A stretch of DNA of 21,076 nt from a virus: the IMG/VR virus record IMGVR_UViG_3300017928_000057, positions 1 to 21,076 of that record, one strand, 5' to 3'. This document shows, piece by piece, positions 3,780-18,374 of the stretch (positions are counted from its first letter, which is position 1; the number at the start of each line of letters is the position of its first letter). Position numbers and translations under genes: made by a program. The notes beneath the pieces were generated by a model. It was given only the letters and a program-made list of their open reading frames with translations. It made no database searches and was not told where the DNA came from.

Positions 3780-4436
3780 ATGCGAGATTTTTTTGTTTAT
3801 GTTCCTTGTCCTAAAGGAGTTTGTTCCGCCGAACTGTTTGGTGATAATAGACAGTTTGATGTAGCTATTAATGACTACACGGGCAGTAATATGGTCCCTG
3901 AACAAGCAGAATATAAATTCAGTATCGATAAATGGAAATATCCGCATATCAAAGAAGATATGAAAGATATAGTTTCAAACTATAAAGCATGTGCTTTTAT
4001 TGATGATGATATTAAAGTTTCTACAGAGGAACTGAATAGACTATTTACTATCGGTATGGATAATAAATTGAATATTTGGCATCCAGCCTTAACTCTTAAT
4101 AGCCATTCTTCTTGGCAACATTTGTATCAACGACCTAATAGTTCTATACGACCCACCAATACAGTTGAGATTATGGCTCCGTTTTTTAGTAAAGCAGCAT
4201 TAGCTATTTGTTGGGATACCCTGAATGTTAATTATAGTGCTTGGGGTATAGAAATCGTTTGGTTTCATTTGTTAAAACCTAATACCAAAACTATGATTAT
4301 TGATGCCGTTCCCGTCACTCACACTCGTCCAATGCGGGGTCATGCCAAAGTTATGCCAAATGGAAAAACCCCTACGGAAGAAGAGAAATTAATGTTGGAT
4401 CATTATGGTTTAACTAAACCAAAATTATGCTACTAA
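3780..4436 (+). CDS. DUF707-like putative glycosyltransferase
   Basis: A 218-residue protein that resembles the DUF707 family, a GT-A-like group of unproven function. CAFIDDDI (about 71-78) gives an acidic DxD-type motif, followed by an EELNRLF helix, WHPALT, a VEIMAPFFSK stretch, YSAWGIEIVW, and PVTHTRP near the C-terminus. This order matches what I recall of the family. There is no transmembrane segment. It starts one base after the preceding stop, with GGAG upstream, and lies in the middle of the sugar cluster. I infer sugar transfer or recognition; an enzymatic role is not established for the family. Confidence 0.6.
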   Translation: MRDFFVYVPCPKGVCSAELFGDNRQFDVAINDYTGSNMVPEQAEYKFSIDKWKYPHIKEDMKDIVSNYKACAFIDDDIKVSTEELNRLFTIGMDNKLNIWHPALTLNSHSSWQHLYQRPNSSIRPTNTVEIMAPFFSKAALAICWDTLNVNYSAWGIEIVWFHLLKPNTKTMIIDAVPVTHTRPMRGHAKVMPNGKTPTEEEKLMLDHYGLTKPKLCY

Positions 4437-10640: not shown

Positions 10641-11414
10641 ATGGCTAACTTCAAATTGAAGGATCGAATTGAGTCCTATCAAGCGACCTCCGACTATAAA
10701 CTGTTGCCTCGTGTGCCCATTATTATCGTGGTCAATGGGCGAAGTTTTGCCAAATTAACACAATTGTTAGACAAACCTTTCTGTCCTAAATTATCAGAGT
10801 GCTTATTGTCTACTACTTTACGTTTGTGCACGGAGATTGAGGGGACTCTATTTGCCTATCAACATAGTGACGAGATTGTGCTGATACTACGTAATGATCA
10901 GCACGATACGACAACGCCCTGGTATGATAATCGTATTCAAAAGATTTGCTCCATCAGTGCCTCCCTGGCCACTATGCATTTCAAAGACTGTGCTAACCAG
11001 ATTAATTTGGATTTATCGGGCGATCCGGTTTTTACCTCACAAGTATTCGCGGTCCCTACTGTTGGGGAGGCAACTAATACTATTGTCTATAAACAACAGC
11101 AAAATTTCCATACTTCTATTCAGTTTGCTTGTGTTTATGAACTGATCAAGAAGCACGATAAAAACTCCATCAAAGAAATGCTAAGTGGTCTCACTATGGA
11201 TGAGAAGATTGATCTCCTCCACCAAGAGTGTCAGATCGATTTCAATCAGTATTCTATTTCTTTTCGACGCGGCTCTATGTGTTATCGTGCCCCCAAAATT
11301 ATTGATGATACAATGAAAAATAGATGGAAAACTGATGATGCACCTATTTTCACGAAAGATCAATCGTTTTTAAGTAATTTGTTTAAAACAGGTGTTGATA
11401 TATTTAGAGGTTAA
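10641..11414 (+). CDS. Thg1-like 3'-5' nucleotidyltransferase (tRNA-His guanylyltransferase family)
   Basis: A 257-residue protein of the Thg1/Thg1-like family, which adds nucleotides in the 3'-5' direction to tRNA 5' ends. VVNGRSFAKLTQ (about 30-41) aligns with the 'xDGRxFHxxT' metal and nucleotide site. YQHSDEIVLIL (73-83) aligns with the 'SDE' catalytic pair, Asp77-Glu78. TIVYKQQQNFHTSIQ aligns with the downstream 'WRQQDxxxNSIQ' signature. The first metal-ligand Asp is Asn (Asn32) here, which would be expected to weaken two-metal catalysis. The neighbouring array of odd tRNAs suggests a 5'-end repair or quality-control role in the phage. It is followed after one base by the HNH gene. Confidence 0.75.
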   Translation: MANFKLKDRIESYQATSDYKLLPRVPIIIVVNGRSFAKLTQLLDKPFCPKLSECLLSTTLRLCTEIEGTLFAYQHSDEIVLILRNDQHDTTTPWYDNRIQKICSISASLATMHFKDCANQINLDLSGDPVFTSQVFAVPTVGEATNTIVYKQQQNFHTSIQFACVYELIKKHDKNSIKEMLSGLTMDEKIDLLHQECQIDFNQYSISFRRGSMCYRAPKIIDDTMKNRWKTDDAPIFTKDQSFLSNLFKTGVDIFRG

Positions 11415-12165: not shown

Positions 12166-12241
12166 GCCTCTTTAGTTCAAAAGCAGAATTACTGATTTGT
12201 ATCCAGTAGATGCCGGTGCGATTCCTAGGCAAGAGGCTCCA
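12166..12241 (+). tRNA. tRNA-Thr (anticodon TGT), with irregular T-arm
   Basis: The acceptor stem GCCTCTT/AAGAGGC pairs perfectly and is followed by T73 and an encoded CCA. The D-stem is GTTC/GAAT. The anticodon arm is ACTGA-TTTGTAT-CCAGT, with one A-C mismatch next to the loop, giving anticodon TGT (reads ACA). The T-arm is unusual: TGCC-GG-TGCGATT-CC-TA-GGCA needs a two-base TA bulge on the 3' side, and the loop has TGC instead of TTC. This could be a genuine degenerate phage tRNA or a decayed one. Confidence 0.7.
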
Positions 12242-13231: not shown

Positions 13232-13585
13232 GGGGTCGACTTAGATTCGACGGGGTAAAAACTCGACGGAATGATACAAACGAAGGAGATTACACCTTTC
13301 AAAGTAATCAACGTTTGAATGCCAACGATAACGGCTTCGCAATGGCAGCTTAATCGCTCCATTTGTCCCAAGATGAGATTGTCTTGGTAATCAAGGGGCA
13401 TTAACCACTAAGACTGGATTATGTAGTATGGCTACGGACTATATAATTAAGATAACAGTAGATGATTCGCTTGAATGAGTATCAAGCTTTGTTGTTAATA
13501 ACTAAGCAAATTAACTAAGTTTGTGAATGAATTTCGTTGATGACGTACCTCGGACTCGCGGGGCAGTGCCGCGACGACTCCACCA
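13232..13585 (+). ncRNA. ssrA: tmRNA (ssrA), complete, tag ANDNGFAMAA
   Basis: The 5' end GGGGTCGACTTAGATTCGACGGG is the tmRNA hallmark (GGATTCGACGGG-like), and GGGGTCG pairs with CGACTCC at the 3' end (one G-T pair), followed by A and an encoded CCA. The resume frame at 13321-13353 reads GCC AAC GAT AAC GGC TTC GCA ATG GCA GCT TAA, encoding ANDNGFAMAA, close to the Escherichia coli tag in its first residues and ending in a hydrophobic-Ala-Ala degron. tmRNA rescues ribosomes stalled on messages lacking a stop codon and marks the product for proteolysis with SmpB, which would be host-supplied. The T-arm TCGCGG-GGCAGTG-CCGCGA has a non-canonical loop. The 354-base length is normal. Confidence 0.95.
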
Positions 13586-14281: not shown

Positions 14282-14677
14282 ATGGATAATGCACTAAAGA
14301 ATAGTAATACTAAATTTGTTTTGATTGGCAAAATTAATGGCTTGGCGGATCAGTCCAAGAAAGCCAGAATTCATATTAAAAAAGCTAAAACCGAGCAAAG
14401 GGTTTGGAAATTAGCTTATCGTAAGCATGTTGTGGGAATTGATATTCGCCATCACCTATTGGCATATGCCTTTCTGCGTGGCAAGCCGTATCGCAAGGTA
14501 GAAGCTAAATGTAGTGAATTCAACAAGCCCTATCCCTATTTAATCTTTAAAGTTATTGAGCAGCACGCACCGTATTATGTTTCGTACCAGTTTAGAGAGA
14601 GCGGCGTTGGCGTTAGAAACTACCAACCTACCCTGAATGACGTTCAAGGTTGGCTCAGTGGTTTGGAGGGTCTTTAA
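14282..14677 (+). CDS. Hypothetical basic protein, 131 aa
   Basis: A 131-residue protein with a strong ribosome-binding site (AAGGAG). It is basic and Lys/Arg-rich in the first half (SKKARIHIKKAKTEQRVWK). A mixed region with many aromatic residues follows (LAYAFLRGKPYRKVE, PYYVSYQFRESGVGV), and the end is acidic (WLSGLEGL). The basic first half might bind RNA, which would fit its place inside the translation module, but I recognise no family. Its stop lies 3 bases before the amber-containing ATG of the HD gene, so the two are probably co-translated. Confidence 0.6.
   Translation: MDNALKNSNTKFVLIGKINGLADQSKKARIHIKKAKTEQRVWKLAYRKHVVGIDIRHHLLAYAFLRGKPYRKVEAKCSEFNKPYPYLIFKVIEQHAPYYVSYQFRESGVGVRNYQPTLNDVQGWLSGLEGL
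14665..14670 (+). promoter_or_regulatory. Ribosome-binding site placing the HD gene start at 14681
   Basis: GGAGGG lies 10 bases before the ATG at 14681. The alternative ATG at 14708 has no comparable site. The position therefore favours initiation upstream of the in-frame TAG at 14687-14689. Confidence 0.55.
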
Positions 14678-14680
14678 CAC

Positions 14681-15259
14681 ATGCCCTAGCTTGAACTCAT
14701 CCGAGACATGCAACAGTGTCCCCAAACCGAAACGCAATCTGTTTATCAGCATGGTCTCTCTGTTAAAGAGCATATTTTCCAGGTGATTAGCTATCTGGAA
14801 ACTGGATACATCTCTGGTGCGTGGCGATTGCCCCAATGGCTTATTGAATATCGCACACAGATTCTTGATAAACTTCTCCCCAAAGAAATTATTGAAGAAT
14901 ACGCAATTTTTCATGATTGTGGAAAACCTTATTGCCTTATTTTTGATGAAAATGGGAAAAGGCATTTTCCTAATCATGCCGAAAAATCTTATCATACCTG
15001 GCTTTCTATTGGGGGTTCTGAACAAGCTGCAAAATTGATGAGAATGGATATGATGATTCATACAATAAAGTCTTCTAATATTGATGACTTTATTACGCAT
15101 CCTGAAGCGATTACTCTACTAATTGCCGGGCTGGCTGAAATTCACTCCAATGCCAAGATGTTCGGCGGAATCGAATCTGATTCTTTCAAAATTAAGTGGA
15201 ATCAAATTAACAAACGTGGTCATGCTATTTGTCAGAAATTATTCAAACAAGGAAACTAA
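14681..15259 (+). CDS. HD-domain phosphohydrolase with in-frame amber codon at position 3
   Basis: Read with TAG (14687-14689) as sense, the product has 192 residues. The HD-superfamily metal pattern is present: H near YQHGLSVKEH, then FHDCGKP (His-Asp about 78-79), NHAEKS, and MIHTI. After the TAG comes LELIRDMQQCPQT, which resembles the start of HD domains in CCA-adding-enzyme and related phosphohydrolases. That stretch lies partly upstream of the next ATG (14708), so the longer form is likely the true one. A start at 14708 would give 183 residues without a ribosome-binding site. The substrate is unknown; nucleotides or tRNA ends are possible. The gene is followed one base later by PTH2, which has the same feature. 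Confidence 0.65.
14687..14689 (+). other. In-frame TAG at codon 3 of the HD-domain gene
   Basis: ATG CCC TAG CTT GAA CTC: the amber codon is in the frame of the HD protein and comes after the ATG that has a ribosome-binding site. It would need a TAG-reading tRNA, and two tRNAs with anticodon CTA are encoded downstream. Confidence 0.6.
15249..15253 (+). promoter_or_regulatory. Ribosome-binding site of the PTH2 gene
   Basis: AAGGA lies 7 bases before ATG 15261, an ideal spacing. It marks that ATG as the start although an amber codon follows at codon 4. Confidence 0.65.
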
Positions 15260-15260
15260 T

Positions 15261-15596
15261 ATGTGTTTATAGAACGAAAAACTGTATATTATCGTAAGAA
15301 AAGATTTAACCCCAGGAGCTAAACTGGCACAATCAGTGCATGCTGCTTTTAGATTTGCGGATGAGTGGAGATATACTACTCAAAAATGGCTGGACAATTC
15401 CGAATACATTTGTATTTTGGAAATTGAGAATGAAAGTCAGCTAAAAGAATTATTACAACGAGCTCGGGAGCTTGATATTCCTAACTCTAGTTTTACTGAG
15501 CCTGACTTTAATAATTCATTAACTGCCATCGCTCTAGCGCCATGCCCAGAAAGTAAAAAACTTTGCAGTGCACTGCCGTTAGCCCTGAAAGAATAA
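15261..15596 (+). CDS. pth2: Peptidyl-tRNA hydrolase 2 (PTH2-like) with in-frame amber codon at position 4
   Basis: The frame reads ATG TGT TTA TAG, then NEKLYIIVRKDLTPGAKLAQ and SVHAAFRF. This is the conserved PTH2 start, with Lys and the Gln-His-Ala active-site region. SFTEPDFNNSLTAIALAP and ALPLALKE complete the fold. Full length is 111 residues, normal for PTH2 (about 115). No ATG, GTG or TTG occurs between the TAG and GTG 15336, which lies inside the catalytic motif; a start there would remove the first strand. The gene therefore appears to need the amber codon to be read. PTH2 releases peptides from stalled peptidyl-tRNA. A CTA-anticodon tRNA follows 48 bases downstream. Confidence 0.75.
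15270..15272 (+). other. In-frame TAG at codon 4 of PTH2
   Basis: ATG TGT TTA TAG AAC GAA AAA CTG: the amber codon precedes the entire conserved PTH2 domain in the same frame. It is the strongest single case for amber readthrough in the window. Confidence 0.75.
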
Positions 15597-15644: not shown

Positions 15645-15715
15645 CCGCCTTTGGTATAGTGGCTGTGCCGCCAACTCTAAATTGGCAGAGCTGTGTTCAA
15701 ATCACAGAAGGTGGG
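15645..15715 (+). tRNA. tRNA with anticodon CTA (amber suppressor)
   Basis: The acceptor stem CCGCCTT/AAGGTGG has seven pairs (one G-T), with G73 followed by CAA, so CCA is not encoded. The D-arm is GTAT-AGTGGCT-GTGC. The anticodon arm GCCAA-CTCTAAA-TTGGC is perfect and gives anticodon CTA, which reads TAG. The T-arm CTGTG-TTCAAAT-CACAG is perfect with a canonical loop. The variable loop is short (class I), which argues against Leu, Ser or Tyr identity. The charged amino acid cannot be deduced; G73 is compatible with Gln among others. It lies directly after the PTH2 gene. Confidence 0.85.
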
Positions 15716-15728
15716 CAAAGAAATAATT

Positions 15729-16049
15729 ATGAAATTATCCGAATATTATAAAATGATTAACGAAGTGGATGGTGTTCCTAATCCGCCCGATGACCCTCGA
15801 ATTACTAGAAAAGATTTAGAATTTAATGGTGGTAAAGGCAAAGAAGGGGCTGCTACTATTATTTTTTTGGATGGACAGCCAGTGTATCTTAATTGGTATA
15901 TCTGGGATCTAAATCATGAGTGGATGATTCAACAAGTGGAGTTGGAATTGGGCGGCAAAATAAAGTTATCTAATTGGTCTGGTGGTAATGGTCATGAGGG
16001 TGCAGATTTAGAGATGGTAAAGGAAAATGACACGCCTGCAAATAGCTAA
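15729..16049 (+). CDS. Hypothetical acidic protein, 106 aa
   Basis: The start is placed at ATG 15729, just beyond the suppressor tRNA; earlier in-frame starts would lie inside the tRNA. The product has an N-terminal helix (MKLSEYYKMINEVDG), a Pro/Asp-rich turn, a Gly/Lys stretch (LEFNGGKGKEGA), then aromatic-rich strands (VYLNWYIWDLNHEWM), and an acidic Asn/Gly-rich C-terminus (NWSGGNGHEGADLEM). There is no transmembrane segment. I recognise no family. Its last 23 bases overlap the start of nadA, so nadA translation is probably coupled to it. Confidence 0.6.
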   Translation: MKLSEYYKMINEVDGVPNPPDDPRITRKDLEFNGGKGKEGAATIIFLDGQPVYLNWYIWDLNHEWMIQQVELELGGKIKLSNWSGGNGHEGADLEMVKENDTPANS

Positions 16050-16992
16050 TCAATCTTATATTGATTCGTCTCTAGATTTGGAAGACGAGATCCAAAAACT
16101 TAAGAAGGAGCGCAACGCCGTCGTTCTCGCGCACTACTATCAAGAGAGCGAGATCCAGGACGCCGCGGACTTCATCGGCGACTCGCTGCAACTATCACAA
16201 GAAGCCGCCAAAACCAATGCCGATGTCATTTGTTTTGCAGGTGTGCATTTTATGGCAGAAACTGCCAAAATCTTGAGTCCGACAAAAATGGTGGTTCTAC
16301 CTGATTTAACTGCCGGCTGTTCGTTAGCCGATGGCTGTCCTGCCGACAAATTTGCAGCATGGAAGTCTCTGCACCCTAATGCCATAGTCATTAGCTACAT
16401 TAACTGTTCGGCAGAAGTCAAAGCCCTTTCTGATTATATTTGCACCTCTTCTAATGCGGAGAAGATTGTTCGACATGTCGCCGATCAAGGCAAACAGATT
16501 CTATTTGCGCCCGATAAACACCTGGGCGCACATATTATCAAGAAAACAGGCATCCCTATGACCTTATGGCAAGGAACGTGTGTGGTGCATGAAACATTTA
16601 GTGAGCGTAAGATTATTGCACTAAAAACACAGCATCCCGACGCTTTACTATTAGCGCATCCGGAATGTGAAGAAAGTATTCTGCGTATGGCTGACCATAT
16701 TGCGTCTACTACCGGTATCCTTAAGTTTGCGGTTAGTAGTTCGGCAAAAAAGTTTATTGTGGCAACCGAATCGGGTATTCTGCATCAAATGAAAAAAGCC
16801 GCTCCTGATAAGGAGTTTATTCCGGCGCCACCTGAAGCCAATTGTGCTTGTAATGAGTGTCCCTTCATGAGAAAAAACACTTTAGAAAAGGTATATTTGT
16901 CTTTAAGAGACTTAACTCCTCAGATACTAATATCCGAGGATTTAATGAATCGTGCGAGAGTGTCCATCGATCGAATGATGGCTTTGAGTTGA
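16027..16992 (+). CDS. nadA: Quinolinate synthase (NadA)
   Basis: A 321-residue [4Fe-4S] enzyme that condenses iminoaspartate with dihydroxyacetone phosphate to give quinolinate in de novo NAD synthesis. AVVLAHYYQESEIQDAADF (about 31-49) is the conserved substrate site, and CFAGVHFMAETAKIL follows. The cluster cysteines are Cys98 (AGCSLADGC), Cys185 (WQGTCVVHE) and Cys278 (NCACNECPFM). All three are present and the length is close to normal (about 300-350 residues). nadB and nadC are not in the window, so it would feed a host pathway. About 16100-16190, encoding the conserved N-terminal motif, is visibly richer in G and C than its surroundings. It overlaps the preceding gene, with AAAGGA before the ATG. 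Confidence 0.92.
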   Translation: MTRLQIANQSYIDSSLDLEDEIQKLKKERNAVVLAHYYQESEIQDAADFIGDSLQLSQEAAKTNADVICFAGVHFMAETAKILSPTKMVVLPDLTAGCSLADGCPADKFAAWKSLHPNAIVISYINCSAEVKALSDYICTSSNAEKIVRHVADQGKQILFAPDKHLGAHIIKKTGIPMTLWQGTCVVHETFSERKIIALKTQHPDALLLAHPECEESILRMADHIASTTGILKFAVSSSAKKFIVATESGILHQMKKAAPDKEFIPAPPEANCACNECPFMRKNTLEKVYLSLRDLTPQILISEDLMNRARVSIDRMMALS

Positions 16993-17364: not shown

Positions 17365-17832
17365 ATGCCGTTCAAAGATCCAGCTAAAAGGAAAGCATAT
17401 CAAAAAGAGTGGGGAAAGAAAAATAATAAAAAAGTATGGGAGCGTAGAAAAAACAATCCTGCATATATTGCATATGCAAAATCATATATGAAAGAGTATA
17501 CAAAAGAGTATGGTCTAAAATATGAGAAAACTCCAAAGAGAAGGTTTGCATCAACTAAATGGCAATCTTCCAAAAGAGGTTTAGAGTTTTCTATTTCTCT
17601 GGAAGAGTTTATTTTTGAAATAGAAAAGCCTTGTGTTTATTGTAATAATCTTTTGGGAGAAAAATCTACATATGCATCAGGATTAGATAGAAAAGATAAT
17701 AATAAAGGCTATACAGTTGATAATATTTGTTCATGCTGCTGGGTTTGTAATTCTATAAAGGGAGAACACCTTTCATTCGAAGAGATGAAAGAGGTGGTCG
17801 ATCTTATATTAAAAATGAGGAAAATTAAATAA
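17365..17832 (+). CDS. HNH endonuclease
   Basis: A 155-residue protein with a strong AAGGAGG site before ATG 17365; the frame upstream runs into the tRNA and is not coding. The N-terminus MPFKDPAKRKAYQKEW is a recurrent start of phage HNH proteins, followed by a Lys/Tyr-rich helical repeat (KSYMKEYTKEYGLKYEK). The nuclease half has PCVYCNNLLG, ASGLDRKDNNKGYTVDN and CCWVCNSIKGEH, combining two zinc-binding CxxC pairs with the DR.DN..GY...N signature. Its AT-rich coding differs from nadA nearby. It sits directly after the second CTA tRNA and is coupled to infC through TAATG. Confidence 0.82.
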   Translation: MPFKDPAKRKAYQKEWGKKNNKKVWERRKNNPAYIAYAKSYMKEYTKEYGLKYEKTPKRRFASTKWQSSKRGLEFSISLEEFIFEIEKPCVYCNNLLGEKSTYASGLDRKDNNKGYTVDNICSCCWVCNSIKGEHLSFEEMKEVVDLILKMRKIK

Positions 17833-18374
17833 TGGATGTTGATCTAACAACCAAATCACAATATCGTACAAGAATTAATAACTATATCAGAATACCGCAA
17901 ATTAGAGTTATTTTAAGTGATGGAACTAATGCGGGCATTATGAATACTAATGAAGCGCTTAAATTAGCAAAAGAGCAATCTTTGGATTTAGTTGAAATTA
18001 ATCCTACCGCTAAACCACCCGTCTGTAAAATTATGGACTTTGGTAAATATAAATACGAAGAAAAAAAGAAGGCTCAAGCTGCTAAGAAGAATCAATCGGT
18101 GCAAGAATTGAAAGAGCTTACTTTTCGTCCCAATACGGATCAAAATGATTTGAACCACAAATTAGAACAAGCCAAAGGCTTTCTTGCCGAAGGTAATAAG
18201 GTTAAATTTACCGTGCGTTTTAGGGGCAGAGAGATAACCCACTCTAATTTAGGTCGTGAAAAATTAGATTGGTGCGTTCAGCAACTACAAGGGTTGATTA
18301 CAGAGAAATCACAAATTTCTCTGGAAGGCAAGTTCATGAGCCTAATAGTATCTCCTGTCAAGCCGAGGGGTTAA
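17832..18374 (+). CDS. infC: Translation initiation factor IF-3
   Basis: A 180-residue, full-length IF-3. The N-terminal domain contains IRVILSDGTNAGIMNTNEAL and SLDLVEINPTAKPPVCKIMD, followed by the lysine-rich linker (YEEKKKAQAAKKNQ). The C-terminal domain contains KELTFRPNTDQNDLNHKLEQ, KVKFTVRFRGREITH and a C-terminal strand ending SPVKPRG. IF-3 binds the 30S subunit, blocks 70S reassociation and proofreads the start codon. A phage copy could bias initiation towards phage messages. The start overlaps the HNH stop (TAATG). There is no host-like infC-rpmI-rplT context, which argues that this is not a bacterial chromosome. Confidence 0.93.
   Translation: MDVDLTTKSQYRTRINNYIRIPQIRVILSDGTNAGIMNTNEALKLAKEQSLDLVEINPTAKPPVCKIMDFGKYKYEEKKKAQAAKKNQSVQELKELTFRPNTDQNDLNHKLEQAKGFLAEGNKVKFTVRFRGREITHSNLGREKLDWCVQQLQGLITEKSQISLEGKFMSLIVSPVKPRG

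Follow-up and report, generated by a model that had tools for sequence, protein, structure and literature searches.

An HD-motif gene and a PTH2-like gene of huge phages may be gated by early amber codons and an adjacent CUA tRNA

Results

Genes and Features at the Locus

The locus described here lies in a 21,076-nt stretch of viral DNA (IMG/VR record IMGVR_UViG_3300017928_000057, positions 1 to 21,076; hereafter, the window) and comprises a gene for an HD-motif protein, a gene for a PTH2-like protein, and a tRNA with the anticodon CUA, with both genes containing an in-frame amber codon shortly after the start (Table 1). Past the amber codon, the frame of the PTH2-like gene continues as AAC GAA AAA CTG TAT ATT, and the protein matches the PTH2 family profile PF01981 over positions 2-104 of 115 (E 4.7e-11; 43.4 bits, above the curated cut-off of 23). 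The earliest ATG, GTG, or TTG past the TAG is GTG 15336, located within the conserved PTH2 motif. A prediction made earlier from this sequence alone (hereafter, the original prediction) had described both the ribosome-binding site (RBS) with ATG-TGT-TTA-TAG followed by a full PTH2 domain in frame and the lack of a start codon between the TAG and GTG 15336; the former was confirmed from the sequence and the PF01981 match, and the latter by reading the sequence. The TAG is also present in two further IMG/VR contigs that are 100% identical to the window over 811 bp; these might come from the same population, so that their main value lies in excluding an assembly slip, less in demonstrating conservation.

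Table 1. Coordinates of the features of the HD/PTH2-like locus in the window
Feature	Position	Strand	Details
RBS of HD-motif gene, GGAGG	14665..14669	+	Read directly; 11 nt ahead of ATG 14681
HD-motif gene	14681..15259	+	ATG CCC TAG CTT GAA ... TAA; homology extends upstream of ATG 14708
In-frame amber codon of HD-motif gene	14687..14689	+	Codon 3
RBS of PTH2-like gene, AAGGA	15249..15253	+	7 nt to ATG 15261
PTH2-like gene	15261..15596	+	ATG TGT TTA TAG, then complete domain; stop TAA 15594-15596
In-frame amber codon of PTH2-like gene	15270..15272	+	Codon 4
tRNA, anticodon CUA, putative amber suppressor	15645..15716	+	ARAGORN ("Pyl" label by anticodon; ordinary cloverleaf)

Conservation of the Early Amber Codon

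Homologs of the PTH2-like gene were collected from virus contigs and phage records, and the early TAG, which the original prediction had proposed to seek in related phage genomes, was found to occupy the equivalent position in 37 distinct PTH2-like loci of huge phages. Each opens with one to three codons, of which the first is ATG, followed by the TAG and then the PTH2 domain. The equivalent TAG persists down to ~37% protein identity and is found in the cultured Serratia phage BF, Pectobacterium phage CBB, Cronobacter phage GAP32, and Xanthomonas phage XbC2. The contigs share ancestry, so that the locus counts overstate independence, although, according to the tree, the TAG was gained or lost several times. 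The early stop is always TAG, with TAA or TGA in 0/37 loci, and TAG is also used in AT-rich genomes, where the commonest chance stop would be TAA; conversely, TAG never terminates the genes that carry it at this early place (hereafter, gated genes). The spacing between ATG and TAG is nearly constant, whereas 0 to 11 residues, depending on the locus, separate the TAG from the first strand of the domain, so that the TAG is tied to the start codon rather than to the fold. The next codon is ATT, GTT, AAT, ATC, AAC, CTT, ATG, or AAA, a variation that leaves no shared start codon directly after the TAG, and in 36/37 loci, the TAG is directly followed by a purine, a context that favors suppression.

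With ratios of nonsynonymous to synonymous substitution rates (dN/dS) of 0.03-0.2 in most tested pairs, the gated genes are under strong purifying selection. GenBank lists truncated open reading frames (ORFs) for CBB, GAP32, and XbC2 and lacks any gene at the corresponding site of Serratia phage BF and several Erwinia phages. Within ~1.2 Mb of related phage sequence, an RBS and an ATG a few codons ahead of a stop that heads a long frame are rare, and the cases in which this stop is TAG are mostly the PTH2-like gene and its neighbor. A search for relatives in bacterial genomes found none.

It could be argued that the amber codons are read fortuitously or with the help of a host suppressor, or else that these genes are in decay or contain a frameshift or a misassembly. 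In the window, an alternative frame from GTG 15263, which reads VFIERK up to a run of five A residues, would join the domain if that run were one base shorter. However, a sequencing error or frameshift at this run was rejected, given that three assemblies are identical and the TAG is kept in 37 loci despite differing flanking codons. The strong purifying selection and the intact predicted fold likewise oppose decay, and this explanation, already refuted by the conservation, retains next to no probability.

In several close pairs (for example, L043/L045 and CBB/GAP32), the first 12 codons past the TAG contain few or no synonymous changes, with many elsewhere in the gene, and are possibly constrained at the RNA level. 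In locus L071 (positions 3970-4000), the homolog reads ATG AAG CGG ATC TAA C, followed by PTH2 in the +1 frame, which is possibly a stop-codon frameshift replacing the TAG or else an assembly error.

CUA tRNAs Accompany the Early TAG

In the window, the CUA tRNA begins 48 nt past the stop of the PTH2-like gene, and relatives carry one or two CUA tRNAs close to this gene. Two large phage contigs scanned whole (37 and 52 tRNAs) have CUA tRNAs only at the PTH2-like locus, and in BF, CBB, GAP32, XbC2, and LR756511, the scanned tRNA regions contain exactly one CUA tRNA, within about 3-8 kb. In Klebsiella phage K64-1, the homolog reads ATG TGT ACT GAA, with no TAG, and no CUA tRNA was detected in the scanned tRNA region. 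Overall, a CUA tRNA is present in the available sequence of 34/38 gated loci versus 2/19 ungated loci (Fisher p 6e-9, uncorrected for phylogeny); these counts include XacN1 and RAS14, where the CUA tRNA is located elsewhere in the genome, and do not treat the mycobacteriophage loci discussed below as gated. The bodies of the CUA tRNAs are highly divergent, some being short and one having a long variable arm. Because only the anticodon is kept, the identity of the inserted amino acid is probably less important than read-through itself. In a single case, L057, there is no early TAG, but a TGA occurs in the middle of the PTH2 domain along with two neighboring tRNAs with the anticodon UCA; the stop type thus covaries with the neighboring anticodon, as expected under a suppressor model.

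Other tRNAs were found next to ungated PTH2-like genes. In L053-type phages (L120-L125, L127, and L128), tRNAs whose 8-nt anticodon loop is built around UUCAA lie ~0.1-1.5 kb downstream; the anticodon may be UCA with one additional base or the four-base UUCA. In L005 (LR745208), L068, and L030 (Lak-B9), ochre-reading tRNAs with the anticodon UUA are located near PTH2-like genes that lack an early TAA.

The Upstream HD-Motif Gene

A search for conserved frames crossing a TAG flagged the gene after PTH2 in BF, CBB, GAP32, and XbC2, which encodes 188 residues; all four have the TAG at codon 47, flanked on either side by highly identical sequence. This gene is homologous to the window gene immediately upstream of PTH2, that is, the HD-motif gene, which table-11 ORF callers begin at ATG 14708. 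As a separate ORF, the HD gene has an early TAG (ATG, 1-7 codons, TAG) in 17 phages, including that of the window. In XacN1 and RAS14, the HD and PTH2 proteins are fused, with a single TAG at the start of the fusion (ATG AAG TAG); these phages initially counted as counterexamples, with a CUA tRNA and a PTH2 devoid of TAG, and were dropped as such once the upstream HD start was read. The single-gene switch of the original prediction is supported for the PTH2-like gene, but its scope was too narrow, overlooking the upstream HD gene that appears to be gated as well.

Apart from the HD gene, wrong-frame shadows dominated the output of the automated search for other conserved frames that span a TAG. 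A third early-TAG candidate, ATG CTA TAG before the phrog_22448 gene (L139:4297, L141:3451, and L143:5096; CBB, GAP32, and XbC2), is probably ungated, with the true start further down, because its match to the PHROG starts at residue 27, close to an ATG further downstream.

Genetic Code and Read-Through

In code-15 phages, including some crAss-like and Lak phages, TAG is recoded throughout the genome, in which case there would be nothing special about the HD/PTH2 pair. The presence of a CUA tRNA and the rarity of TAG as a terminator are compatible with such recoding. However, in most of these phages, TAG is still the terminator of about 1-5% of long ORFs (14% in G012), so that the code is not reassigned; moreover, coding density barely rises when TAG is read as sense, and early-TAG genes are nearly limited to the HD/PTH2 pair. 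The code-15 pattern, with no TAG terminators and in-frame TAG common genome-wide, is not observed here, making this explanation very improbable. What is observed is the pattern of amber suppressor-dependent genes, namely, a conserved in-frame UAG under purifying selection, a cognate CUA tRNA in the same genome, and covariation of stop and anticodon, with many TAG/CUA cases and one TGA/UCA case.

Another possibility is that ATG-X-(X)-TAG is a minigene or reinitiation leader of two or three codons, with termination or drop-off and some reinitiation at a near-start codon shortly downstream. In that case, expression would respond to peptidyl-tRNA drop-off or to release-factor activity rather than to the suppressor tRNA. 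Several observations fit this scheme: the TAG sits 1-3 codons past the ATG regardless of the distance to the domain, the weak start codon ATT directly follows it in 17 of the 37 loci, and most drop-off stems from two-codon minigenes, the product of which is a Pth substrate (PMC8708949, PMC10192219). Furthermore, in the seven Bixzunavirus/Myrnavirus mycobacteriophages examined (L034, L115-L118, L008, and L016), the PTH2 gene reads ATG-TAG-GTG or GTG-TAG-GTG, the GTG past the TAG is the annotated start, and a CUA tRNA is found a few hundred bases downstream; these cases may be escaped, dual-start, or coincidental. Conversely, GTT, AAT, AAC, AAA, and CTT, which follow the TAG in other loci, are not start codons, the TAG of the HD gene is at codon 47 in BF, CBB, GAP32, and XbC2, and neither the CUA tRNAs nor the TGA/UCA pair is predicted by a minigene. 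In addition, L006, L049, and L066, whose genomes are otherwise standard-code, contain a second in-frame TAG deep inside the PTH2 domain, so that their proteins are unreachable by reinitiation past the first TAG, which favors true read-through. On balance, a minigene is an improbable account of these loci. The early stop is also reminiscent of the autoregulatory prfB frameshift and the lambda bar minigenes, in which an early stop or a two-codon mini-ORF likewise controls or taxes translation in the context of translation factors, but here the frame is kept and the stop type matches the anticodon of a neighboring suppressor.

Protein Folds and Neighboring Genes

The AlphaFold model of the PTH2-like protein has a predicted local distance difference test (pLDDT) score of 96.9, and its significant Foldseek matches in the PDB belong to the PTH2 family, led by 2zv3. 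It shares with peptidyl-tRNA hydrolase 2 (PF01981; MJ0051, 2zv3; AF2095, 3erj) the overall fold (template modeling [TM] score 0.77-0.84) and the conserved His and Thr, but has shorter loops and lacks the canonical lysine: the G-K-G-K loop is two residues shorter, with Y, L, or A in place of the expected Lys, which we take to be the catalytic residue of PTH2. Many of these genomes also encode a canonical PTH2 without the stop. Thus, the description as a tRNA-recycling enzyme in the original prediction is not established for this divergent second PTH2-like copy.

The HD protein was modeled with a pLDDT of 94 and has no Pfam match in a profile search, but contains an invariant HDCGK-type (HDxGK) motif and a further His. 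Among solved structures, the HD region of an Aquifex tRNA-processing enzyme (3wfo) is nearest in fold, a moderate match (probability 1.00, but E 0.002 and TM 0.58). Judging from the predicted models, both proteins appear to have folds of tRNA-handling enzymes, and their substrate is probably tRNA or peptidyl-tRNA. They may plausibly serve to limit the harm from peptidyl-tRNA that is stalled or dropped during suppression.

Elsewhere in the window are a transfer-messenger RNA (tmRNA) gene (13232-13585; Rfam E 4e-34), which relatives also carry near the locus, and genes for IF-3 (17832-18374), a Thg1-like tRNA-His guanylyltransferase (10641-11414), and the quinolinate synthase NadA (16027-16992). 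A weak Rfam tRNA that was not called by ARAGORN, with an apparent UGU (Thr) anticodon, is present at 12166-12237 beside a tRNA-Thr (GGU); relatives have Thr tRNA clusters at the equivalent position.

Discussion

These comparisons suggest, with a probability that we estimate at about 0.82, that phages using the standard code employ a dedicated suppressor tRNA to license a two-gene tRNA-handling module hidden behind amber codons at codons 3-4. The proposal in the original prediction that the TAG is decoded, with expression tied to a TAG-reading tRNA, is supported by comparative evidence, including the CUA tRNA 48 nt downstream, the co-occurrence across loci, the TGA/UCA pair, and the second TAGs. 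Ribosomes would start at the upstream ATG, as supported by the RBS, the start codon, and their conservation; with the host machinery alone, RF1 would end translation after 2-3 residues; and once the phage CUA tRNA is transcribed and charged, UAG would be read and the full proteins made. The CUA tRNA would thus serve as the licence for its own small module.

Several observations weigh against this interpretation. Four gated loci lack a CUA tRNA in the available sequence, which has short or partial flanks, and L126 and L073 carry CUA tRNAs, yet their PTH2 has no amber codon. In the mycobacteriophages, the RBS spacing is better for the GTG directly after ATG/GTG-TAG. A C directly follows the TAG in 5/19 HD genes, and a conserved in-frame ATG seven codons past the TAG of the HD gene (window 14708) is a potential start, which makes gating of this gene less certain than that of the PTH2-like gene.

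Suppressor activity could, speculatively, feed back by switching on the proteins that limit its side effects. The locus would then be a homeostatic sensor of amber suppression, in which the suppressor tRNA turns on two proteins that limit or repair the damage from read-through, drop-off, and stalled peptidyl-tRNA, a scenario that we put forward only tentatively. Alternatively, the PTH2-like protein might cope with suppressor tRNAs generally, the early TAG being a secondary refinement in some lineages. The UCA, UUA, and 8-nt-loop (UUCA) tRNAs that adjoin PTH2-like genes without an early stop, and the CUA tRNA of L126, point in this direction, and there is no conflict with gating; the general role, which we regard as possible but somewhat doubtful, is compatible with suppressor-licensed expression, and our confidences in the two overlap.

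Like the locus described here, code-15 phages (crAss-like and Lak) rely on a phage-encoded suppressor tRNA that permits TAG within genes, but in the present case, the standard code is kept, and gating concerns one small locus, in which the TAG occupies codon 3-4 and the tRNA is adjacent. Suppressor tRNAs without a named target have been reported in the large tRNA complements of standard-code jumbo phages, namely, XacN1 (CUA), RsoM2USA (CUA), and Atu_ph07 (UCA) (PMC5852040, PMC8504454, PMC6102473); the authors of the XacN1 study reported the CUA tRNAs and sought a target, but found none (PMC5852040). The tRNAs considered here are of the same type, but a conserved target is now proposed for them. 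XacN1 itself belongs to the present set, and its HD-PTH2 fusion is a likely target of its "orphan" suppressor tRNA. We found no earlier report of an amber-gated gene pair with an adjacent suppressor tRNA in the open-access literature.

Amber gating would account for the omission or truncation of both genes by gene callers, and the locus offers a likely target for the suppressor tRNAs of many standard-code jumbo phages, including cultured ones. If this interpretation is correct, phages switch genes by pairing a stop codon with a private tRNA while leaving their genetic code unchanged.
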